This document shows, in pieces, positions 1,123 through 12,611 of a stretch of DNA of 64,000 nucleotides. The translations under genes were made by a program, and so were the position numbers. The notes under the pieces are model-generated. The model was not told where the DNA came from. It searched no databases and saw only the letters and a list, made by a program, of their open reading frames with translations. Within the stretch, counting starts at the first letter, position 1, and each line of letters starts with the position of its first letter. Source of the stretch: Zwartia hollandica (GTDB taxonomy: Bacteria; Pseudomonadota; Gammaproteobacteria; Burkholderiales; Burkholderiaceae_B); assembly GCF_019923725.1 (NCBI RefSeq), contig NZ_JAHXRI010000010.1:62001-126000 (forward strand), written 5' to 3'.

Positions 1123-3498
1123 TTAGGCTTTCACAGCTTGAATGGCTTGCCACACGCGGTGTGGGGTCGCAGGCATATCGATGTCTTTCACACCCAAGGG
1201 TGCTAAGGCATCCAACACTGCATTGATAATCGCGGGAGGCGAGCCAATCGCACCGGCTTCCCCGCAACCTTTGGTACCAAGCGGGTTGTGCGTGCACGGT
1301 GTGCAAACATGACCGATCTTGAACTCTGGGAAATCATCCGCGCGCGGCATGGCGTAGTCCATGAAAGAACCCGTCAGCAACTGCCCTGTTTCGCGGTCAT
1401 AGACGCAGTTCTCAATGAGCGCCTGTCCGATGCCTTGCACCAAACCACCATGCACCTGACCTTCCACAATCATCGGGTTGATGATCGTGCCAAAGTCATC
1501 GACGGCGGTGAAGCGGTCTAAGCGGACCACGCCCGTTTCAGGGTCGATTTCCACCTCGGCAATGTAGGTGCCCGAAGGGAACGTAAAGTTAGTGGGATCG
1601 TAGAAGGCGGTTTCATTCAAACCAGGCTCTAAGGTCTCTAACGGATAGTTGTGCGGGACGTAGGCTGTGAGTGCCACGGTACCAAACGCAATCTTCTTGT
1701 CGGTTCCGCGCACAGTAAATTCACCGTTCGCAAAATCGATGTCGGTGTCAGAGGCTTCCAGTAAATGAGCTGCAATCTTTTTGGCCTTGGCTTCGATCTT
1801 ATCCAAAGCCTTCATGATGGCCGCACCACCCACGGAGATCGAACGCGAGCCGTACGTACCCATCCCAAAGGGCACGCGTCCGGTATCACCGTGCACGATA
1901 TCGACCGCATCCACAGCGATGCCCAAGCGCGAAGCCACCACCTGCGCAAAAGTCGTTTCATGACCTTGGCCATGGCTATGCGAGCCCGTAAAGACTGTCA
2001 CGCTACCGGTTGGGTGTACGCGGACTTCACCGCATTCAAACAAGCCAGCGCGCGCGCCCAAGGCACCCGCAATATTGCTTGGTGCAAGACCGCAAGCTTC
2101 GATGTAGCTCGAGTAACCAATCCCACGCAATTTGCCTTGGGCTTTGCTAGCCGCCTGTCGCGCTTTAAATCCCGCCACATCGGCCAGTTTCTGCGAAGCA
2201 TCCATGCAGGCAACGTAATCGCCAATATCGTATTGAAGCGCCACAGGTGTCTGATACGGGAACTGGGTAATGAAGTTGCGACGACGGATCTCGTCTTGTG
2301 ACAGCCCAAGTTCAAATGCTGCACGGCTAACAATACGCTCGAGCAAGTACGTTGCCTCAGGGCGTCCCGCGCCACGATAGGCATCGACAGGTGCGGTGTT
2401 GGTAAACCAGGCATCCACCTCGGCATAGACCAGCGGTGTCGTGTATTGCCCAGCCAACAAGGTTGCGTACAAAATTGTTGGGACGCAAGTTGAGAATGTA
2501 GAGAGATAAGCTCCTAAGTTTGCGTCGGTATGCACACGCAAGGCTAAGAATTTGCCATCTTTATCGATCGCAAGCTCAGCATGGCTTGAGTGATCCCGGC
2601 CGTGCGCATCTGACAAGAACGCCTCGCCTCGCTCACATATCCACTTGATGTTCCGATTGAGCTTTTTAGAGGCCCAGGTTAGGCAAACATCTTCTGCGTA
2701 CAAATAGATCTTTGAACCAAAGCCACCGCCTACATCCGGAGCAATCACTCTAACTTTATGCTCAGGCAGACCCATCACGAACGCTGTCATCAACAAGCGT
2801 TCAACGTGTGGGTTCTGGTTTGAAACGTACAACGTATAGTCATCGTTTGCGCGACTATAAGAACCAATCGCAGCGCGCGGCTCCATCGCGTTCGGCACGA
2901 GACGGTTATTAATCAGATCTAGTTTGGTGATATGCGCAGCACCGTTAAAGGCTGCATCGACTTGGGCTTTGTCGCCAATCGCCCATTTGTAGCAATGGTT
3001 GTCTGGTGCGATATCGTGCAGTGCTGCACCACCCTTCGCATCACGCACATCGACGACTGCCGACAAGGGCTCGTAATCGACTTCGACCAACTCGGCTGCA
3101 TTCTTTGCTTGCTCAAGCGTTTCAGCTACGACCATTACAACGTGGTCACCCACGTAGCGCACTTTATCCAATGCCAAAATAGGATGTGGCGGCTCTTTCA
3201 TGGGCTGGCCGTCTGTGCTGGTGATTAACCAGCCGCAAGGCAAGCCGTTGATCTTATCGTTCGCAACATCTTTGCCCTCGAGCACGCCAATCACACCAGG
3301 GGCGCTTTTAGCTGCACTCGTATTGACGCTCTTGACGAGCGCGTGTGCGTGCGGTGAACGCACAAACACGGCATGTGCCATGCGTGGCAGAGTAATGTCG
3401 TCGGTATATTGACCAGCGCCAGTCAGGAAACGGTAGTCTTCTTTACGCAAGACTGACTCACCAATGTGTGGCAACTTCGCGAAATCATTTGCACCCAT
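1123..3498 (-). CDS. Large molybdopterin subunit, form II CoxL-like aerobic-type dehydrogenase
   Basis: The 791-residue protein has the full molybdenum hydroxylase architecture. The N-terminal a/b-hammerhead begins near [12 protein letters not shown]. The cofactor loops include DVGGGFGSK (about 255-263) and a C-terminal GCGEAG in which E747 is the expected catalytic glutamate. The active-site loop reads AYRGAGR (373-379). This is the signature of form II (putative) CO dehydrogenases; bona fide form I CO dehydrogenases have AYRCSFR with the catalytic cysteine. The enzyme may therefore hydroxylate another small organic substrate. Small- and medium-subunit genes flank it in one operon. The acyl-CoA ligase transcribed in the opposite direction about 1.8 kb away may act in the same pathway, which is inference only. 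Confidence 0.93.
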
Positions 3499-3508
3499 GT
3501 TCGTCTCC

Positions 3509-3982
3509 TTAAGCTTTCATGGCGGCAGCACCTTGCTGCACAGCCTTGACGATGTTTTGATAACCGGTGCAACGACAAATATTGCCTTCTAGTTGCTCGC
3601 GGATCTGTTGTGCGGTTGGATTAGGATGCTTGCGGCAGATATCCACTGCATTCATCACCATACCGGGGGTGCAATAGCCGCACTGCAAACCGTGGCAATC
3701 TTTAAAGGCCGCTTGCATCGGGTGCATCGTGCCATCGGCTTGCGCCAAGCCTTCGATGGTCGAGATCTCGGCACCCTGCGCTTGTGCCAGCAGCACGTTG
3801 CAAGATTTGATTGCATTGCCATTCATCAAAACTGTGCAGGCACCACACTGCGCGGTGTCACAGCCGACGTGGGTACCGGTCAGGTTGAGGTGCTCTCGCA
3901 GCGCCTGAACAAGCAAGGTGTTGGGTGCGGCGGTCAGTGTCACTGCCTGCCCGTTCACCGTTAGTTGGATCTGCATCATCAA
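3509..3982 (-). CDS. Small 2Fe-2S subunit of the molybdenum hydroxylase (CoxS-like)
   Basis: This 157-residue protein contains both expected iron-sulfur cluster motifs. The plant-type ferredoxin cluster uses C41, C46, C49 and C61 ([16 protein letters not shown]). The C-terminal helical-domain cluster uses C101, C104, C136 and C138 ([11 protein letters not shown] and [13 protein letters not shown]). All eight cysteines are intact. It is the first gene of the operon that runs leftwards through the large and medium subunits to the MoxR ATPase; the large-subunit gene follows after 10 bp. The translation starts MMMQIQL, so initiation could be at any of three adjacent ATG codons. Confidence 0.95.
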
Positions 3983-4043
3983 GCGGTCTCCTCAGGTAAC
4001 TAAGTAAAGTTTTAATGCCAGCCATATGGTTGATCGAGTCTAT

Positions 4044-4083
4044 ACCGGTTTATGCTGAGAACCAATCCAGTAATACCCTAGAG
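4044..4083. repeat. 40-bp direct repeat, copy 1, left of fic
   Basis: These 40 bases are identical to 5266-5305, with no mismatch when compared base by base. The two copies bracket the Fic gene. The copy starts ACCGGTTTATGC and ends ACCCTAGAG. Copy 1 lies between the 5' end of the small-subunit gene and the 3' end of fic. Confidence 0.97.
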
Positions 4084-4104
4084 ATGACCACCACAAAGGC
4101 GGCG

Positions 4105-5226
4105 CTACCGAGCGAGCAACAACTCGTAACTCGTGCTGCGGCCGCTGGCCGCTGACTTCTTCAACGCGCCACGCTCGACGAGCTCAGTGATGTCACGCAA
4201 CGCAGTGTCTTGTGAGCACTTCGCGATAGCACCCCATTTTGTCGTGGTGAGCTTGCCTTCAAAGCCATCGAGCAATTTATTGAGCAACTTAAGCTGCCTT
4301 GCATTGAAAGGCAGCCCTGCCTGCTGTTGCCAGAAACGCGCCTTTGCAAGGACAGACTCAAGCGTCTGTTCAGCACCCTGAATTGCTCTTAACAAGCAGG
4401 ACAGAAACCATTCAAGCCAACCGGTGACATCCATCCCACCTTTCTGCGTGGCTTCTAAGCGCTCGTAGTAAGCCTTGCGCTCTTTTTGAATCTGGGCCGA
4501 CAGACTGTAGTAGCGATAGCTACTGTTCTCTGCACGCGCAAGTGCCATGTCGCCGACAGCGCGTGCGATGCGGCCATTGCCGTCATCAAAGGGATGAATC
4601 GTCACAAACCAAAGATGTGCAAGCCCTGCGCGAAGGACGGGGTCCTCGGCTTGAGTGTGATTGAACCACTTTAGAAATTCTGCCATCTCAGCATCTAACA
4701 CTGAAGCCGCTGGCGCTTGATAGTGAATCGTTTGACGGTGCAGAGGTCCGGATACAACCTGCATCGCGCCCAACGCATCATCGCGCCAGGCTCCAACTTT
4801 GATGGTGGCGAGCCCGCTGTAGCCAGTTGGAAACAGGGCCGCATGCCAGCCAAAGAGTCGCTCGGCAGTCAACGGCATGCGATGGCGCTGGGTCGCATCC
4901 AGCACCATATCCACCACACCTTCAACCTGTCGATCTGTCGGCGCCAAACCACCGATGTCTACTCCTAGACGGCGCGCAATTGAAGAGCGTACCGAGTCAG
5001 CATTGAGTATTTCACCCTCGATTTCGCTGGTATTGAGCACGTCTTCGGTCAAGATTCGCAATAAGGCTTGATCGCGTAGATCTAGTCCTAGGTCGACCAT
5101 TCGGCCTAACAAGTAACCCTGGGCCCTATGCACTTGCGCAAGCAATGTCGCCAGCCGCTTGGTGTCAAACACCCAGTGCGGCCAGTCGCGTTGCTGCCAA
5201 ATATAGCGTTTATCTCCGCTTTTCAT
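4105..5226 (-). CDS. Fic family protein with DUF4172 N-terminus
   Basis: The 373-residue protein starts with a DUF4172-like segment (YIWQQRDWPHWVFD). It carries an inhibitory-helix motif of the (S/T)xxxE(G/N) type in NTSEIEGEIL near residue 70. Its catalytic Fic motif is HPFDDGNGRIAR near residue 213, with histidine, acidic and both glycine/arginine positions intact. A winged-helix-like C-terminus (LNKLLDGFEGKLTTTKW) follows. Fic enzymes usually transfer AMP to protein hydroxyl groups; an inhibitory helix on the N-terminal side marks self-inhibited class II proteins. The gene sits alone between two oppositely oriented metabolic transcription units and is bracketed by perfect 40-bp direct repeats, so it looks inserted. 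The target is unknown. Confidence 0.92.
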   Translation of the reverse strand: MKSGDKRYIWQQRDWPHWVFDTKRLATLLAQVHRAQGYLLGRMVDLGLDLRDQALLRILTEDVLNTSEIEGEILNADSVRSSIARRLGVDIGGLAPTDRQVEGVVDMVLDATQRHRMPLTAERLFGWHAALFPTGYSGLATIKVGAWRDDALGAMQVVSGPLHRQTIHYQAPAASVLDAEMAEFLKWFNHTQAEDPVLRAGLAHLWFVTIHPFDDGNGRIARAVGDMALARAENSSYRYYSLSAQIQKERKAYYERLEATQKGGMDVTGWLEWFLSCLLRAIQGAEQTLESVLAKARFWQQQAGLPFNARQLKLLNKLLDGFEGKLTTTKWGAIAKCSQDTALRDITELVERGALKKSAASGRSTSYELLLAR

Positions 5227-5314: not shown

Positions 5315-6841
5315 ATGAATATTGCAAAACCATTTCTACTGAGAGCCCTCAGTCACCCCCACTTAAACGCCGTGACGCATCGAGGGCAAACGGTGTCCTA
5401 TGGGCAATTAGCCGCACGCATCCTCGGGCTCGCCAGTACCTTACAGCAGACTTACCAACTAAAGCCAGGCGATCGTGTCGTACTTTGCATGGAAAATCGT
5501 CGCGAATTTCTTGAGGTGTTGTTTGCTTGCTGGGTTGCTGGACTGTGTGCGGTACCGGTTAATGCAAAGCTGCATCCCAAAGAGATCAAACCCATCGCTG
5601 AAGACAGCGGGGCAACCCTGCTTTTCACGACCGCTTCGCTCTACCCGGGACTGGCACTTGAGCTTGCCCAGGCCGTACCTAACTGCCTATTGATCAATGT
5701 CGACAACGCACAGTACGAGGCCGACGTGCAAGTGCCACCAACCTCTTGCGCAAGCGTAAGACCTGACGACTTAGCCTGGATCTTCTACACAAGCGGGACC
5801 ACGGGTATACCCAAAGGTGCAATGCTGTCCCACCGAAACTTAATGATGATGTGTTTGCAATATTGCACCGATATCGATCAAGTGATCGCCGGGCAAACCA
5901 TGCTGCATGTTGCCCCACTGTCGCACGGTTCGGGTCTGTATGCCCTGCCCCATCTATTTGCCGGTGGGCATCAAGTGATTGAAGACGCGTTTACGACCGA
6001 TATTGTGTTTGAGTCTTTTAAGCGCTTTCCTGGTGTGTCGATGTTTGCAGCACCAACAATGTTGTCACGCTTAGTGCGTTCGTCTAACGGCATCAGCAAT
6101 CCGGCGGGCAATCTATTGACCATCCATTATGGTGGTGGCCCGATGTATGTGAGCGATTTGCTCAAGACTCTCGAGCTTTTTGGGCCGAAGCTTTATCAAG
6201 TCTATGGTCAAGGGGAAAGCCCAATGACCATCGCAGGTTTATCGAAACAAGACCATGAAGGTTCGATGGATACGGCACACCTCGCGCGCCTAGCCTCTTG
6301 CGGCACGGCACGTACGGGCGTCGAGATGCGCGTAGTTGACGAGCACGGCGCAGACGTCCCGCCTGGCGAGTTAGGTGAAGTGATCACCCGCAGCGATACC
6401 CGTATGCTTGGCTATTGGAATAACGCCAAAGCCACGGCTGCTGCCATACGCGATGGTTGGCTATGGACGGGCGACATCGGTACCATGAACGAGCTCGGTT
6501 ATCTGACCCTGCGGGATCGCTCTAAAGATATGATCATCCGAGGTGGCAGCAACATCTACCCACGCGAGATCGAAGAAGTGTTGTTGCGTCACCCCGCTAT
6601 CGTCGAAGTCTCTGTGATCGGCCGAGAGCACGCAGATCTTGGTGAAGAACCCATCGCTTTTGTCGTTGTAAGAGCAGAGCACGAAATCACAAGCGACGAA
6701 ATGGACGCACTATGTCTAGAAAATATGGCACGCTTTAAGCGACCACGAGAATATGTTTTCGTAGATAGCTTGCCGAAGAATAACTATGGAAAAATCTTAA
6801 AGACGGAGCTGCGAAAGACGCTGAAGGGCAAAGTGAAATAG
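5315..6841 (+). CDS. AMP-dependent acyl-CoA synthetase/ligase
   Basis: The 508-residue protein has the standard ANL-superfamily motifs in order: the P-loop YTSGTTGIPKGAML (158-171), YGQGE of the adenine-binding region, GWLWTGDIG, and RGGSNIYPREIEEVL at the hinge. The C-terminal KNNYGKILKTELR contains the catalytic lysine. It should activate a carboxylic acid as the acyl-adenylate and then the CoA thioester in the cytosol. The substrate cannot be read from sequence. It faces away from the molybdenum hydroxylase operon and may share a pathway with it (hydroxylation, then CoA activation), although fic now separates them. Its leader is one copy of the 40-bp repeat. Confidence 0.93.
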   Translation: MNIAKPFLLRALSHPHLNAVTHRGQTVSYGQLAARILGLASTLQQTYQLKPGDRVVLCMENRREFLEVLFACWVAGLCAVPVNAKLHPKEIKPIAEDSGATLLFTTASLYPGLALELAQAVPNCLLINVDNAQYEADVQVPPTSCASVRPDDLAWIFYTSGTTGIPKGAMLSHRNLMMMCLQYCTDIDQVIAGQTMLHVAPLSHGSGLYALPHLFAGGHQVIEDAFTTDIVFESFKRFPGVSMFAAPTMLSRLVRSSNGISNPAGNLLTIHYGGGPMYVSDLLKTLELFGPKLYQVYGQGESPMTIAGLSKQDHEGSMDTAHLARLASCGTARTGVEMRVVDEHGADVPPGELGEVITRSDTRMLGYWNNAKATAAAIRDGWLWTGDIGTMNELGYLTLRDRSKDMIIRGGSNIYPREIEEVLLRHPAIVEVSVIGREHADLGEEPIAFVVVRAEHEITSDEMDALCLENMARFKRPREYVFVDSLPKNNYGKILKTELRKTLKGKVK

Positions 6842-6898: not shown

Positions 6899-6928
6899 TT
6901 GACTGCTGAAAACTAACCACCTTATAAG
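6899..6928 (+). promoter_or_regulatory. Sigma-70-type promoter for the RiPP-like precursor gene
   Basis: TTGACT at 6899-6904 is separated by 17 bp from TTATAA at 6922-6927 (TATAAG one base further). This is a close match to -35 and -10 consensus elements. It lies about 75 bp upstream of the small precursor ORF and points towards it. Two direct copies of CACTAGT (6934-6940 and 6952-6958) follow in the presumed leader and could be an operator, which is speculative. Confidence 0.65.
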
Positions 6929-7003
6929 AAAGGCACTAGTCAGCTACCACTCACTAGTTCCCCATGACCACACGGAGATGGGTATACAACCTTGGAGTTA
7001 ATA

Positions 7004-7135
7004 ATGAATATTGAACTCGATGAAGTAGTTGTTCAGAGTATTTCTGACGATGCACTGGAACAAGCTGCGGGCGACTCGAAAGGCGGACAAATCAACTACA
7101 CCATGGTCAAAAGCTACGCAGGGTGTAACTGCTAG
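7004..7135 (+). CDS. 43-residue RiPP-like precursor peptide (candidate)
   Basis: ATG at 7004 is preceded by GGAG with 6-bp spacing and opens a 43-codon frame ending in TAG at 7133. The first 23 residues are acidic and end ISDDALEQAAG, which resembles the helical leader ends of many bacteriocin-type precursors (for example LExxAG before cleavage). The remaining 20 residues, DSKGGQINYTMVKSYAGCNC, would be the core; an internal GG (27-28) offers an alternative cut. The C-terminus has two cysteines and a tyrosine. The gene has its own promoter, is followed by a hairpin-T-run, and then by an AurF-like oxygenase on the same strand, a layout typical of a precursor and its modifying enzyme. I do not recognise the peptide family. 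No leader peptidase or exporter is adjacent. Confidence 0.7.
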   Translation: MNIELDEVVVQSISDDALEQAAGDSKGGQINYTMVKSYAGCNC

Positions 7136-7159
7136 TCCCAATTAGACATTGAACCCCCT

Positions 7160-7192
7160 CCACTTGTAGATCGAGGTCTTCAAGTGGTTTTT
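7160..7192 (+). terminator. Intrinsic terminator/attenuator between precursor and oxygenase genes
   Basis: CCACTTG (7160-7166) pairs perfectly with CAAGTGG (7181-7187). An inner AGA/TCT pairing is possible, and five T residues follow at 7188-7192. Its position just after the small ORF and before the oxygenase fits partial termination, which would give more precursor than enzyme. Confidence 0.75.
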
Positions 7193-7224
7193 AGAGATAG
7201 TACTCTCGACGTTGGATTGATCTC

Positions 7225-8247
7225 TTGGACAAAAAAAATAGTTACGACGACTTGTGCGCCTATTCCGAGAAATTTTTAAACGACTGGGAGAATAAATCAA
7301 CGGTTCGCACACAAAAGCGCAGTCGATTTAGTAAACAGCTATTGGCGAAAGTCGAGTTTGCATATCACCTAAAATCCTATGCCCACTATCCTGAAGTACA
7401 AGCGCTTACAAAGAAACAGCTGCAGCCCTTTTACCTGCAAAGCTTTTGCGACATGTTGGGAACTGTCGCAATTTTTGAAGTTAGCTTCGTCACGGATCAA
7501 TGCGGCAAGTTAGCAACGCAGGATCTTGGGGTTGAGCTAAGCGACTCAGTCAAGCGAGCCGCTATCGCCATCGGCACCGACGAGATGTACCACGCGCTTG
7601 TCGCTCGGGAGCTGCTATCGGATATCAAAACGCTCACTGGCATGGAGCCAAGCCATATCGCAACCGGTGCAGTCAAGAAAAAATCTGTCGGTACTAAAAA
7701 AATTAAATCCTCTGGAGTGCAGCTTGCGCCACTGGATTACTTTAAAAGTGCGGTGCCGCCAAAACTACAAAACATTGCCGCAGCTATCGTGCTGTGCATC
7801 TCCGAAAATTCAGCAGTAGATGATCTGATTGTCATGGCAAGAAATGCCAATAAGGACAATCCAGCAGACCTCTATATTAGAGAACATCTGGCAGATGAGA
7901 GTCGCCACTCAGCTTTTTTTCAACGTTTGTTGAAATATATGTGGTCGATCGTGACAGAGAAAGATCGGATTGTTTTAGGCCGTGCTATCGCAGGTTATTT
8001 CGTTAAATATATTTCTTCGAACGAAGATCAACGCTATCGCGTTCACTACAACGAACTAAGACGCTTGGAATTATCTGAGCAGACTTGTCAAACCATTGCG
8101 CGAGAGGTCGCGCAGAATGAGTGCAACACACCACTCTATGATGTTGAATTCAACAAACCTGCAATGCAGTTAATGAAAATTGCCGGAGTGCATGATCATC
8201 TGCCAACCCGTCGATTATTTGTAAGAAATAACTTATTAGCCGCATGA
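7225..8247 (+). CDS. AurF-type diiron oxygenase, putative peptide-modifying enzyme
   Basis: The 340-residue frame begins at a TTG (7225); there is no ATG near the N-terminus and only a weak ribosome site. The sequence fits the p-aminobenzoate N-oxygenase AurF family of ferritin-like diiron enzymes. E85, E120, H123, E194, H221, E225 and H228 occupy the seven metal-ligand positions, in EVSFV, GTDEMYHA, SENSA and EHLADESRH. Their spacings match AurF (E101, E136, H139, E196, H223, E227, H230) everywhere except one longer loop between H123 and E194, which is Lys/Ser-rich. AurF enzymes oxidise arylamines. Here the only partner visible is the 43-residue peptide encoded upstream, so the substrate may be that peptide. 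Catalytic competence is well supported; the peptide substrate is inference. Confidence 0.85.
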   Translation: MDKKNSYDDLCAYSEKFLNDWENKSTVRTQKRSRFSKQLLAKVEFAYHLKSYAHYPEVQALTKKQLQPFYLQSFCDMLGTVAIFEVSFVTDQCGKLATQDLGVELSDSVKRAAIAIGTDEMYHALVARELLSDIKTLTGMEPSHIATGAVKKKSVGTKKIKSSGVQLAPLDYFKSAVPPKLQNIAAAIVLCISENSAVDDLIVMARNANKDNPADLYIREHLADESRHSAFFQRLLKYMWSIVTEKDRIVLGRAIAGYFVKYISSNEDQRYRVHYNELRRLELSEQTCQTIAREVAQNECNTPLYDVEFNKPAMQLMKIAGVHDHLPTRRLFVRNNLLAA

Positions 8248-8392
8248 ATCACTCGCGCTCACCACAGAAATCATAGAGCGGATTGATCAATTTATTACGT
8301 GTTTGGCCATACAAATGACGACACTCTTTGCCATTATTGGCTTACTCTCAAAGATTGCGAACATTTTCTAATTTTCAAAAGGCTCGAACACC

Positions 8393-8902
8393 ATGTCCAC
8401 ATCCCTTTACAACGCCACAGTCCCTGTCTTCAAGCAAATGCTCTTAGCCCTTAGTGACGTCTTAAAAAAAGGCGAGGAGTATGCTGAACAGAAAAAATTT
8501 GACTCGACAGTCTTATTGCAGGCGCGTTTGTTCCCCGACATGCTTCCACTGGTTCGCCAAGTACAAATTGCCTGTGATTTCGCCAAGAGCGTCCCTTCGC
8601 GTCTTGCCGGGGTAGAAGTTGCCGCGTATGAAGATACTGAACAAACTTTTGCTGAGTTGCAGCAACGTATTGCCAAGACACTTGCGCTCATTAACGCGTT
8701 CACGCCCGCGCAATTAGACGGTAGCGCCGTCAAAGAAATTGTTTTACGTCCAGGCACTCCAAAAGAGAAAAAACTCGCGGTCGAAGACTACGCCTTGAAA
8801 TACGGCATGCCGCAATTCTTCTTTCATGTCACCACCGCATACAACTTGCTACGCAGCAATGGTGTCGAAATCGGCAAGAAGGACTTTATGGGTTCGTACT
8901 AG
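8393..8902 (+). CDS. DUF1993 family protein
   Basis: The 169-residue protein (SLYNATVPVFKQMLLALSDVL at the N-terminus, PQFFFHVTTAYNLLRSNGV near the C-terminus) matches the DUF1993 family, small cytosolic four-helix proteins of the DinB-like superfamily with no established function. The length is usual and no signal peptide is visible. It follows the oxygenase gene after 145 bp on the same strand. I see no reason to link it functionally, because DUF1993 genes are commonly solitary. Confidence 0.88.
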   Translation: MSTSLYNATVPVFKQMLLALSDVLKKGEEYAEQKKFDSTVLLQARLFPDMLPLVRQVQIACDFAKSVPSRLAGVEVAAYEDTEQTFAELQQRIAKTLALINAFTPAQLDGSAVKEIVLRPGTPKEKKLAVEDYALKYGMPQFFFHVTTAYNLLRSNGVEIGKKDFMGSY

Positions 8903-8907
8903 CATTC

Positions 8908-8955
8908 TTTAGCACTGGCATTATTTAGCACTGGTATTAATTAGCACTGTCTTTA
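8908..8955. repeat. Three tandem 16-bp units
   Basis: Units at 8908-8923, 8924-8939 and 8940-8955 share the core TTAGCACTG. Units 1 and 2 differ at one base; unit 3 is more diverged. They fill the gap between the DUF1993 gene and the SRAP gene and leave no clear ribosome-binding site before the latter. Confidence 0.8.
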
Positions 8956-8961
8956 TGCGCG

Positions 8962-9603
8962 ATGTGTAGCCACTACAAACCAGTCTCCCATATCAACCAG
9001 CTGCGCCAAGCCTTTGGGCTGGGCCCGCTGGAGGATCTTGGCAGGCCAGATATGTGGCCGGGTTACCAAGGCGTGTTTATCCGCCCTCACCCACACGCGG
9101 ATGTCGGTGACGAGGCGGTTCCCGCGCGCGAGGCACTTGCTGGTCACTGGGGTCTGATCCCCCATTGGTCTAAAGATGGCAAGGTCAAGGGCACGTTCAA
9201 TGCCCGCAGCGAAACCATCGCAGAGAAGCCAACGTTTCGTGATGCCTGGAGAAAAGGCCAACGCTGCATCATCCCGGCACTATCAGTATTTGAGCCCGAC
9301 TGGCGCTCAGGCAAGGCCGTGCCCGCCAAAGTATCACGTGCCGATGGTGAACCGATGGGTATCGCGGGAATCTGGTCGACTTGGCGTGGCCCGACCGGCT
9401 GGGTAGAAAGCTACACCATGCTGACTGTTAACGCGGACGATCACGCTGTCTTTAAGCTCTTGCACAAACCGCAAGACGAAAAGCGCATGGTGGTGATCCT
9501 GAACCCCGACAGCTACGAGACTTGGCTTAAAGGGAATGCTGCGGACGTCGCGCCACTTATTCGGCAGTGCCCGGCAGAGGCGCTTAAGTTAGGTCAAACC
9601 TAG
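8962..9603 (+). CDS. SRAP (YedK/HMCES-type) abasic-site processing protein
   Basis: The 213-residue protein starts MCSHYKP. After removal of Met, Cys2 would be the nucleophile that forms the thiazolidine cross-link with abasic sites in single-stranded DNA. Other family features are present: GLIPHWS, FNARSETI with the active-site Asn and Glu, RCIIPALSVFEP, and a histidine in LLHKPQDEKRMVVIL. The role is protection of replication forks at abasic DNA. The start is fixed by the need for Cys2 even though no good Shine-Dalgarno sequence precedes it; a short tandem repeat lies immediately upstream. Confidence 0.93.
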   Translation: MCSHYKPVSHINQLRQAFGLGPLEDLGRPDMWPGYQGVFIRPHPHADVGDEAVPAREALAGHWGLIPHWSKDGKVKGTFNARSETIAEKPTFRDAWRKGQRCIIPALSVFEPDWRSGKAVPAKVSRADGEPMGIAGIWSTWRGPTGWVESYTMLTVNADDHAVFKLLHKPQDEKRMVVILNPDSYETWLKGNAADVAPLIRQCPAEALKLGQT

Positions 9604-9607
9604 CAAC

Positions 9608-10159
9608 CTAGCCCACCCGCTCTTCATCAACTTCTTTTGAGCGGTCAAAGAACTTTCGGACTTCAGCTTGGTAGCGGGCTCTAATTACATTGGACTGTTT
9701 ATTCCCTTGACCAATGGTGATCCGCTTGTTCTGCAACTCATCGAACATCTGATCTATTTCATTATGAAAAATCGTCAGTTGAACCTTAAGCTCATATTCC
9801 CTAAAAGCTTGAAGCCGTAGCGCTCTGCACTCTTTATTTTTCTCACGAAACTCTTTAAGCAACTCGACCTGGGTATCGGTTAAGTACTGCGTAGAATTTT
9901 CGAGATAAGAATACTCTCTCGCGATTGCCGGTGAGTACAAGATTTGAGAAAACACACGCTTCCCCACGTCTGAGTCATTCAGGTCGTCCAGACAGCGATT
10001 CGCTTGAGCAAAAGTGACAACCGTAGCCGGCTTAGCAACGGGGGTGGCGGTCTCCTGCTTTGTTGCAGAACTCTGGCATCCGCTTAAAACAAAGGCGATC
10101 GCTAATAATCCTAGCTTCATTCGCAGGTTGGTTTGGCGCATTTCACGCAGTCGTTTCAT
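9608..10159 (-). CDS. Putative lipoprotein of unknown function
   Basis: The 183-residue protein has a basic N-terminus, a hydrophobic stretch and a lipobox, LSGC, about residues 26-29, so it is probably exported and lipid-anchored. The mature part is mostly charged and helical (for example QVELLKEFREKNKECRALR) with no domain I recognise. It starts 9 bp after the stop of the DUF2779 gene on the same strand and is likely cotranscribed. A shorter start at an internal ATG (10120) would still keep the signal peptide but lacks a ribosome site. Confidence 0.7.
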   Translation of the reverse strand: MKRLREMRQTNLRMKLGLLAIAFVLSGCQSSATKQETATPVAKPATVVTFAQANRCLDDLNDSDVGKRVFSQILYSPAIAREYSYLENSTQYLTDTQVELLKEFREKNKECRALRLQAFREYELKVQLTIFHNEIDQMFDELQNKRITIGQGNKQSNVIRARYQAEVRKFFDRSKEVDEERVG

Positions 10160-10168
10160 TCAAACTCT

Positions 10169-11629
10169 TTAATTTGGTTGTAATGCACAAAAGCGCTTAG
10201 CGACGTGCACCATCGCTAGGGTATCTTGATAACAGTACTTCAATAAGTCCTCATAGAGCGCATCGCGCCGCAAGACTGGTGTTGCGCGATCAATCAGCTC
10301 TAGGTACGCGACCTGTGCCAAACCACCATTTCCAATTGCTAAATTGACGTAGTCCAAGTCTGACAAAGTTGGTAACACTGCTTTGATTGACCACGACCCC
10401 ATCATTGCTGGGTGATAGTAGTTTTTCTGTGCCAACGGCAAGAGATCAAAAATTCGCTCTATCAACGCCAACAACCGCGGAGCTAGGTCCGGGAAATGCG
10501 CAGCAAGCTCTTCTATCCGGGAACTCTCAAAACCTGCGTTATAGACAAGAATGCTCCCCTGCGCCCCCAAGGTATTGAGCAAAGACTCTGCAAAGACGCG
10601 CCTAGGGTCGCTCGCGTCTCGGTGCAAGAACTGCTGATGTTGTAACGCCGCACCTGCACCCGTCTCGATATGGCATGACCACTGAAAAGGTATTTGTTGA
10701 TACGGACGACTGTCTAGCCAACGTGGCACCGCCGGTGCAACGGTCTCAAAGTCTAGGTAATAACGGGGATACGGCAACTGATCCAGCGCTTCTTTGGCCA
10801 AAGGATTCAAATACGTCTGACCGGACACAGAGACTTGGCGCACACGCTCGTGGTTCTCTTTATCTAGATAGCCGTCGGGGATTTGTCTTACATCGCTGAT
10901 GCCCTTTTTTGCAAACTGTTCTAACTGCTTTGCACTGACTCGCGGCAAGATAGAGACTGGGTACTCGGTTTGCTTCTCTAAGGATTTGCAATATGCAAGG
11001 TAGCCGCACTCAAAGGGCTGTTTGCACTGACGACCCGTCTTTACTTCTGGGAGCTCAGTTTGTTCGCTGGTTGCCTTAGCTGAGGCGATCCAGTCGGGCA
11101 CTTGATCAAGACGCTCTTTGACTGAAGCGGTAATGTCGACTTCAGTAATCAAGCCTTGGTACTGCCCTTCCGTTTTGTACTCAAACGTATTATTGATATG
11201 ACCTAACGCTACGCTTGTGGGTACCAAGCCTGCTTGCTGCATTACCCAGTACTGAACGCTCGCGTCCTCGTAGTGATAGTCCTTCACCTCAGTTGAGGAC
11301 TTCACTTCAACAAGCCGATAGCTACCTTTTTGTGGCAAGAGTAGATCGACTCTGACTAAGACATCGCCTGCAACAAACGCAGGTTCAAACACGGGAACCG
11401 TTTTTTGGTTTAGCGCCTCTTGCGTGCGCACCAAGGCCTGGGGAAGATGTAGGGTATCTATCAATACACCGCCAGGGTGCAATTGACGCGAGACATCCCC
11501 AACCCGATTGCCCTCAGCCAGGCGCGCGATGGTCGCGTCGTCGTATTGCGCCAAAGAGCGTCGGTTCAGATCAAGCCATAAGAGCCTGGGGCACTGTCGA
11601 TGCTTCGTGATCTTTGATTTTGTTAACAC
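10169..11629 (-). CDS. DUF2779 protein with Cas4-like nuclease N-terminus
   Basis: The 486-residue protein begins at a GTG (SKITKHRQCPRLLWLDLNRR), a Cas4-like N-terminus with a cysteine in KHRQCPRLLW. It continues through a PD-(D/E)XK-like core (VRVDLLLPQKGSYRLVEVKS, with the D...E-V-K triad). A cysteine cluster follows (GRQCKQPFECGYLAYCKS), which may bind Fe-S as in Cas4. The C-terminal DUF2779 part has an RNase H-like exonuclease look (YYLDFETV). DUF2779 proteins are solitary predicted nucleases of unknown substrate. The stop is 9 bp before the lipoprotein gene, and the WYL regulator lies 10 bp upstream, so the three genes form one minus-strand unit. Confidence 0.85.
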   Translation of the reverse strand: MLTKSKITKHRQCPRLLWLDLNRRSLAQYDDATIARLAEGNRVGDVSRQLHPGGVLIDTLHLPQALVRTQEALNQKTVPVFEPAFVAGDVLVRVDLLLPQKGSYRLVEVKSSTEVKDYHYEDASVQYWVMQQAGLVPTSVALGHINNTFEYKTEGQYQGLITEVDITASVKERLDQVPDWIASAKATSEQTELPEVKTGRQCKQPFECGYLAYCKSLEKQTEYPVSILPRVSAKQLEQFAKKGISDVRQIPDGYLDKENHERVRQVSVSGQTYLNPLAKEALDQLPYPRYYLDFETVAPAVPRWLDSRPYQQIPFQWSCHIETGAGAALQHQQFLHRDASDPRRVFAESLLNTLGAQGSILVYNAGFESSRIEELAAHFPDLAPRLLALIERIFDLLPLAQKNYYHPAMMGSWSIKAVLPTLSDLDYVNLAIGNGGLAQVAYLELIDRATPVLRRDALYEDLLKYCYQDTLAMVHVAKRFCALQPN

Positions 11630-11639
11630 TGGCGAGCGC

Positions 11640-12611
11640 TTAATAAAGCTGTGACATTTTTTGTACGGTCTCTTTAACTTTCTTTTTAAGTGCAGGTGGC
11701 CCGAGGACTTCTACGTCAGGCCCTTGGCGCAAGATATCTTGGATGAGCTCCCAGTCTTCGCCATACGGCACTTCTAAGGTGTAGCTGCCATCTGGGTGCA
11801 CTTCACCCACTTGCTCGGGATGCCAGACCTCGCGCGCAACCCATTGCGCTCTGAAGGGTGTGAACTTCAACTTTGCAAGCTGGCTATTCTTGCCAGAGAA
11901 AATACCGTAGCTCGTCTCAAACATTTCGCGTAACTCGCCTTCGGGAACGTTCTTCGCGATTTGCTCTGTTAACTGTGCACCATTCAAGGCATCGAGCGCA
12001 AAACTGCGTAGACCATCGCGTAGATGACAGTAAGCATCAAGGTACCAATTGTCGCGGTAGTACACAAGCCGCTGCGGAGATACTTGACGCTCGGTCGCCT
12101 GACCCGTTTGACGCGCAAAATGTTTGAGGTCGAGACGCTTGCGTTGTACCAACGCATGGGTGATCACTTGAAAATGTTCACCCAAGACCTGGCGCTGCGC
12201 CATCGGCAAAATCCGAATGCGCGACATCACCTCTTTGGAACCACCAACGCCCCCGTCTAATAAGCCCTCAAGACGGCTCTTAAACGGTGAAACGTGTGGC
12301 AGTAGCAAGCCACCCGGTTCGAGTTTTGAAATCAATTCAATCATCGTCAACAATGAATGGATCTCTTGCTGGTTAAACCAAACACCTGGCAGCTCGAAGG
12401 TTTTGTCCTCCGACGGTTGCCGTGTCATGGCGTAGCCGCGTAGCGTCGCATCCCAAGCGAAGGGGATATTGAGCCGATCACGCATATAGGCCAGATCACG
12501 ATTTAAGGTTGCGCGCGAGACTTCAAGCGCGTCCTGCATTTGCTTCATTGTGACTGAGGGCTTGGCCATCAACATGGCTTGAATCTTGTAGAACCGTTCT
12601 GTGCGATCCAT
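11640..12611 (-). CDS. WYL-domain transcriptional regulator
   Basis: The 323-residue protein has an N-terminal winged helix (SVTMKQMQDALEVSRATLNRDL), a WYL domain with NWYLDAYCHLRDGLRSFALD (about residues 200-220) and the usual C-terminal WCX extension. WYL proteins are DNA-binding regulators that sense nucleic-acid or nucleotide ligands and often control defence or DNA-repair genes. It is the first gene of the unit that continues into the DUF2779 predicted nuclease 10 bp downstream, so it may autoregulate that pair. Confidence 0.92.
   Translation of the reverse strand: MDRTERFYKIQAMLMAKPSVTMKQMQDALEVSRATLNRDLAYMRDRLNIPFAWDATLRGYAMTRQPSEDKTFELPGVWFNQQEIHSLLTMIELISKLEPGGLLLPHVSPFKSRLEGLLDGGVGGSKEVMSRIRILPMAQRQVLGEHFQVITHALVQRKRLDLKHFARQTGQATERQVSPQRLVYYRDNWYLDAYCHLRDGLRSFALDALNGAQLTEQIAKNVPEGELREMFETSYGIFSGKNSQLAKLKFTPFRAQWVAREVWHPEQVGEVHPDGSYTLEVPYGEDWELIQDILRQGPDVEVLGPPALKKKVKETVQKMSQLY

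Follow-up and report, generated by a model that had tools for sequence, protein, structure and literature searches.

An AurF-type oxygenase gene beside a candidate prochlorosin-like lanthipeptide precursor in Zwartia hollandica

A gene for a 43-residue peptide is followed by a gene for an AurF-type diiron oxygenase in the window, the 64 kb stretch of the Zwartia hollandica genome analyzed here. We consider it likely that the peptide is a prochlorosin-like class II lanthipeptide precursor from a diversity-generating family, served in trans by a LanM synthetase with a CCG motif, and that the neighboring oxygenase is a tailoring enzyme of the same pathway. An earlier note on this DNA had pictured a stand-alone oxygenase modifying a peptide. 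This picture is not supported: the leader belongs to a family with nine matches in the genome and a CCG LanM is encoded in trans, which makes a lanthipeptide tailoring enzyme the better reading of the oxygenase. The suggestion that the peptide is the likely substrate of the enzyme gains from the conservation of the pair, and given the linkage described below the peptide probably is the substrate. In the mechanism that we propose, the LanM encoded on contig C23 would bind the conserved leader, dehydrate Ser/Thr residues of the core and presumably close (methyl)lanthionine rings to Cys, while the AurF-fold enzyme would activate O2 and place oxygen on members of the peptide family as a tailoring step. 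The likely terminator between the two genes may hold the output of the enzyme under that of the precursor through attenuation.

The precursor gene and its leader family

The precursor gene (7004..7135, forward strand) runs from an ATG at 7004 to a TAG stop at 7133-7135 and encodes MNIELDEVVVQSISDDALEQAAGDSKGGQINYTMVKSYAGCNC. The same frame is found in a metagenome-assembled genome (MAG) of a second species in the genus (G005; locus L014, contig CAMBFI010000018.1), where the peptide is 86% identical and most codon changes are silent (10.5 synonymous and 6.5 non-synonymous differences, a small total of 17), so that the 43-codon gene postulated 5' of the oxygenase is real. The dN/dS ratios derived from these few counts (0.11 for the whole gene, 0.06 for the leader, 0.18 for the core) place the precursor under purifying selection; the ratio for the oxygenase gene is 0.18. 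Gene order is also the same in both genomes (AMP-ligase, precursor, hairpin, AurF), and downstream of AurF lies a DUF1993 gene in the window and other genes in G005. The record titles of two MAGs, those of L014 (Bordetella parapertussis) and L017 (Ca. Methylopumilus), conflict with their common genus placement and look mislabelled.

Of the expression signals proposed in the earlier note, the GGAG ribosome site is present at 6994..6997 (forward strand), within a TTGGAG stretch; of 68 precursors of the leader family, 51 have this stretch no more than 20 nt before their start codon. The sequence CAACCTTGGAG stands upstream of 20/68 precursors, often after a CCCAC..GTGGG-like stretch, and such a recurrent 5' stretch before dispersed precursors (6960-6997 in the window) perhaps reflects shared regulation. 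The proposed promoter, TTGACT-N17-TTATAA (6899..6928, forward strand), is conserved in the alignment with G005, but it was missed by a consensus promoter scan (3 matches in the region against 3.6 expected) and TTGACT-N18-TATAAG is an equally possible reading, which leaves it a possible and unproven element. The hairpin and T-run described after the precursor are there in both genomes (CCACTTG...CAAGTGG, 7160..7192, forward strand, in the window) and likely form a terminator or attenuator in the gap before the oxygenase gene. Folding against shuffled sequences gives a modest signal in each case (MFE -12.7, z -1.6 in the window; MFE -14.8, z -2.2 in G005, where the inner stem is changed), and a pattern scan with a loop limit of 8 did not report the hairpin.

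When the precursor was used as query against 32 genus genomes, 18 of them gave matches at E<=1 and 17 at E<0.01. The matches number 84 in total, up to 15 in a single genome and 9 in Z. hollandica. Among 69 distinct precursors, drawn from the fetched loci and fewer than all matches, the leader is near-constant (M-N-I-E-L-[DE]-E-V-V...S-D-D-A-L-E-x-A-A-G); a Ser/Thr precedes a Cys in 68 of them, and the cores otherwise share little. A Cys falls within the last four residues in 58/69, and GG marks the leader-core junction in 50/69. Left out of this set were three precursors with non-ATG starts (L054 5781, L059 8037, L089 7301), a further one (L094) that is truncated where its contig ends, and the whole family of the genomes G430 and G431, in which further precursors combine a related leader with varied cores. 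In the window the junction reads GD, with GG four residues later (SKGG|QINY...). The cleavage site AAG|DSKGG, as suggested before, is therefore doubtful. The leader spans approximately residues 1-23, or extends to SKGG at residue 28, and the core ends in ...KSYAGCNC, with Ser/Thr able to undergo ring closure to Cys (TMVKSYAGCNC).

Some precursor genes stand alone and others form arrays, of ten genes at most. The largest array (L044 5857-8725, on G004:C14) joins one leader to ten different cores, and no LanM was found within the 16 kb read at this locus. Neither Pfam (up to E=1) nor NCBIfam matched the precursor to a Nif11 leader, and a tblastn search of plasmids for the precursor yielded just two matches, both at chance level (E about 9). 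The leader family of the window peptide, taken with the LanM described next, makes a class II lanthipeptide precursor modified in trans its most likely identity.

A LanM synthetase encoded in trans

One cluster of proteins of about 1073 aa was recovered from 5 of the first 20 regions examined, and both copies scanned with Pfam (from Z. hollandica and from L015) combine DUF4135 with LANC_like, which identifies them as LanM. The synthetase is present in 16 of the 32 genus genomes; in Z. hollandica it lies at G000:C23:541130-544351, on a different contig from the window. The statement that no lanthionine enzyme is nearby thus holds for the 64 kb window, where LanM had no match, but not for the genome. 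Precursor and LanM tend to occur together (15 genomes with both, 2 with the precursor only, 1 with LanM only and 14 with neither, scoring G021 at E=0.45 as precursor-absent; Fisher p=7e-6), although the genomes, being related, do not count as fully independent. The CCG motif is present in each of the 16 LanMs inspected, and the available text of one study associates this motif with highly promiscuous ProcM-like enzymes (PMC10027976). The motif together with the many precursors suggests that the system works like that of the prochlorosins.

It could be argued that AurF is the sole modifying enzyme of a ribosomally synthesized peptide with zero lanthionines, as the pair of precursor and AurF is conserved and the window itself holds no LanM. 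However, the genome does encode a CCG LanM, precursors that adjoin LanM elsewhere have this same leader, and Ser/Thr and two Cys are retained in the core, so that we regard this explanation as improbable and retain that of a lanthipeptide modified in trans.

The AurF-type enzyme and its genomic linkage

The AurF-like reading frame (7225..8247, forward strand) comprises 340 codons from a TTG at 7225, a start that is assumed in a frame open from 7201, and its product is 83% identical to that of G005. Its score against the Pfam AurF family (PF11583) is 23.3 bits and that of the L015 enzyme 19.9, both under the cut-off of 29.6, and by this measure the two are members of a divergent outlying clade of the family. 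NCBIfam gave no match for the enzyme or for the precursor. The modelled enzyme (pLDDT 83.7, built from 7 sequences) has the AurF fold, with AurF (3chu, Z 20.5) and CmlI (5hyh, Z 20.4) as the best PDB structure matches and ribonucleotide reductase R2 next (Z 15.3); a sequence search of the PDB with the AurF profile found zero diiron proteins (best E 0.066, to sulfhydryl oxidases). Seven residues (E85, E120, H123, E194, H221, E225, H228) are invariant in the window enzyme and its six aligned relatives, and we take these to be the diiron ligands on the pattern of AurF. Fold and invariant residues are in agreement with the AurF-type enzyme with seven diiron ligands described in the earlier note.

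A total of 7 loci came from a scan of genome contigs for which the AurF alignment served as query, the closest after G005 being L015 (52%) and L016 (50%). Beyond these, a search across the order found only distant matches (22-27%) in 4 of 398 other genomes, and tblastn against plasmids found four at 22-23%: those of Fischerella and Megaera lie near NRPS genes, the Burkholderia record carries no annotation at that place, and the Streptomyces match has no NRPS link in the stretch shown. In a tree of 15 rows (the Burkholderia plasmid match is missing, as the filter found no ORF for it) the enzymes of the window, G005, L015 and L016 group with support of 92/95 inside a 7-row clade at 100/100, at whose base, by the program's own warning, long branches meet. 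These four are the AurFs linked to a precursor or to LanM.

At L015 the AurF gene (7974-9005) is followed after 87 nt by LanM (9093-12332), with an SbmA/BacA-like gene 3' of LanM, and at L016 AurF (233-1300) is followed after 61 nt by LanM (1362-4607); in G028 a 35-residue AurF remnant lies immediately upstream of LanM. The adjacency comprises two intact loci from related genomes and one remnant, with much of the data from draft genomes or MAGs, and should be read with this in mind. Just 5' of the AurF-LanM pair in L015, a coreless leader-only ORF (7853-7933, MPANVIELENAQLLEFTVEHFESITN) may be a stand-alone leader or what is left of a precursor after decay. In L016 the contig extends 232 nt ahead of AurF, and no leader-family ORF lies there. 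L015 comes from the genome G430; in a set of 250 relatives of that genome, close copies of AurF occur only in G430 and G431 (a G450 copy is 29% identical), and the same is true of LanM (a G497 copy is 34% identical). Because this set was built around a genome in which both genes had already been seen, its Fisher p of 3e-5 is not an independent test; the pattern shows a shared rarity of AurF and LanM.

The position before LanM is variable. The regions upstream of 15 LanMs were inspected, one of which extends over just 297 nt. An intact GNAT is present in 5 of them, the remnant of a GNAT in 1, that of AurF in 1 and neither gene in 8, Pfam having been run on one GNAT. The GNAT-like genes, of 301-304 aa, lie between precursors and LanM at L053 (7034-7939; the copy scanned with Pfam), L056 (5570-6475), L062, L069 and L087, in G004, G009, G023, G020 and G030 respectively; the remnant is in G031. 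These loci possibly encode an acylated lanthipeptide system. Since a GNAT acylates the nostolysamides according to the available text of PMC13060382, the slot before LanM may be a tailoring slot. A role for AurF in self-protection, or as a regulatory oxidase of the lanthipeptide pathway, would also be in line with the linkage data, which suit any function within the pathway, but a slot that is filled by GNAT in other genomes suits maturation better, and we consider such a role very unlikely.

A third species (G022) offers a clean empty site: one block of about 1.48 kb, which in G005 holds the precursor, the hairpin and AurF, is missing from G022 in the alignment, and the ligase is directly followed by DNA that in G005 lies 3' of AurF. 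Precursor and AurF thus come and go together, and the gain or loss of the block as a unit argues that these two belong together and that the ligase does not. G022 retains LanM and other precursors, which shows AurF to be accessory to the system. This bears on a further explanation, in which the substrate of AurF is a small molecule, the AMP-ligase upstream (5315-6841) being a conceivable partner, and AurF lies beside the precursor by accident. In its favor, an acyl-CoA-ligase-like gene precedes the pair in both the window and G005, the PDB titles name AurF an N-oxygenase and CmlI an arylamine oxygenase, and HamC oxidizes carrier-bound valine in the portion of its description available (PMC11659414). 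Close ligases are, however, found in 19 of the 32 genus genomes (E<=1e-150), and of the ligase loci besides those of Z. hollandica and G005, 14 have no AurF in at least 797 nt behind the ligase and 3 are too short to tell. With the ligase kept at the empty site of G022 and LanM adjoining AurF in L015 and L016, we find the small-molecule explanation unlikely and continue with that of a lanthipeptide tailoring enzyme.

Within the genus, LanM is present in 5 of the 6 genomes with a full-length AurF and in 11 of the 26 others, a difference that is not significant (p=0.17), and most genomes with LanM, G022 included, are without a full-length AurF; in Z. hollandica and G005, AurF adjoins one precursor and not LanM. 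A more distant AurF clade (L017-L020, 36-38% identical, on the same contigs as L003-L006) adjoins a membrane pyrophosphatase, with what is presumably an MlrC-like gene alongside in the copies read through. Neither a profile search nor inspection of ORFs and alignment gave a leader-family ORF near these four. The earlier note had held that AurF homologues lacking a small ORF would count against the pairing and had proposed a search upstream of them: the pair recurs in G005, and homologues lacking the ORF do exist at L017-L020 and L016, but L015 and L016, the closest after G005, adjoin LanM. Neither LanM nor a precursor match occurs in G027, a genome of 89% completeness that carries the distant clade. 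The G030 copy of this clade (L006) has an in-frame stop, and degenerate AurF pieces occur at L080 6616-7014 in G017, a genome without LanM or precursor matches.

The cores linked to AurF (10 from G430/G431 and that of the window) were compared with 59 of the 69 precursors as background; near-duplicates, one masked row and the precursors of the window and G005 had been taken out by hand. Tyr occurs in 10/11 linked cores against 32/59, CxC in 4/11 against 6/59 (each p=0.04, uncorrected) and Lys in 1/11 against 15/59; after allowing for the seven motifs tried, no core motif marks the AurF-linked precursors. An aromatic residue or CxC as the target was accordingly not accepted, and Lys as a common target was rejected on its single occurrence. 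As to the site of oxidation we can offer only guesses, each of them tentative: N-oxygenation of the N-terminal alpha-amine after leader removal comes first, C-H or aromatic hydroxylation is slightly less favored, S-oxidation of the thioether somewhat less again, and Lys is improbable. On balance, we lean towards the AurF-type oxygenase being a core-tolerant tailoring enzyme of a prochlorosin-like family in the Burkholderiales, perhaps oxygenating many lanthionine cores.

Comparison with known systems

Should this reading be correct, a ferritin-like diiron oxygenase would join the known tailoring enzymes of lanthipeptides, and AurF chemistry, known from amines that are small or bound to a carrier, would extend to ribosomal peptides. 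It would also mean that in a non-cyanobacterial lineage one CCG-type LanM accompanies many cores unrelated to each other (a genome has up to 15 precursor matches), and that the slot before LanM holds exchangeable genes, AurF or GNAT. The sequences of the peptide, of LanM and of AurF are at hand, so that the chemistry is directly testable by co-expression.

The likeness to the prochlorosins (ProcM, SyncM), as far as the available texts describe them, lies in one promiscuous CCG LanM, many precursors dispersed over the genome, a conserved leader and hypervariable cores (PMC10783134; PMC10027976). The system here differs in its Burkholderiales hosts, in a leader of about 23-28 residues without a Nif11 match as opposed to the long Nif11-type leader of the prochlorosins, and in the AurF or GNAT that takes the slot before LanM in some genomes. 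The nostolysamides and the GNAT selidamides combine a class II LanM with a GNAT in one cluster, similar to the GNAT-LanM loci of this genus; in the accessible parts of their descriptions the GNAT acylates Lys and a diiron enzyme does not appear (PMC13060382; PMC10373908).

Oxygenation of lanthipeptides is itself not new. CinX, like DurX, is an Asp hydroxylase of the Fe/2-oxoglutarate type. Hydroxylation by DurX and by a P450, as covered in the available text of PMC10373908, which contains no occurrence of "diiron", shares with the proposed reaction an oxygenated lanthipeptide core, but these are not ferritin-like diiron enzymes as the window AurF would be. Radical SAM enzymes, P450s and 2-oxoglutarate oxygenases are named for lanthipeptide clusters in the main text of PMC7268733, which in the form available mentions neither AurF nor diiron. 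Among the papers listed from the open-access literature searched, no title or abstract shown connects lanthipeptides with AurF or a ferritin-like diiron enzyme, which says little about whether such a report exists; "lanthipeptide" stands together with "diiron" or "AurF" in PMC7357120, PMC7670169, PMC4239341 and PMC8359417.

The closest counterparts in fold are the small-molecule oxygenases AurF and CmlI, to which the window enzyme is only 11-14% identical. These two and HamC presumably share the seven-ligand pattern with it. The three are known to act on arylamines or, in the case of HamC (PMC11659414), on carrier-bound valine, and not on ribosomal peptides in the text consulted. Since HamC, by the same account, oxidizes a valine bound to its carrier, relatives of AurF can act on a tethered substrate.
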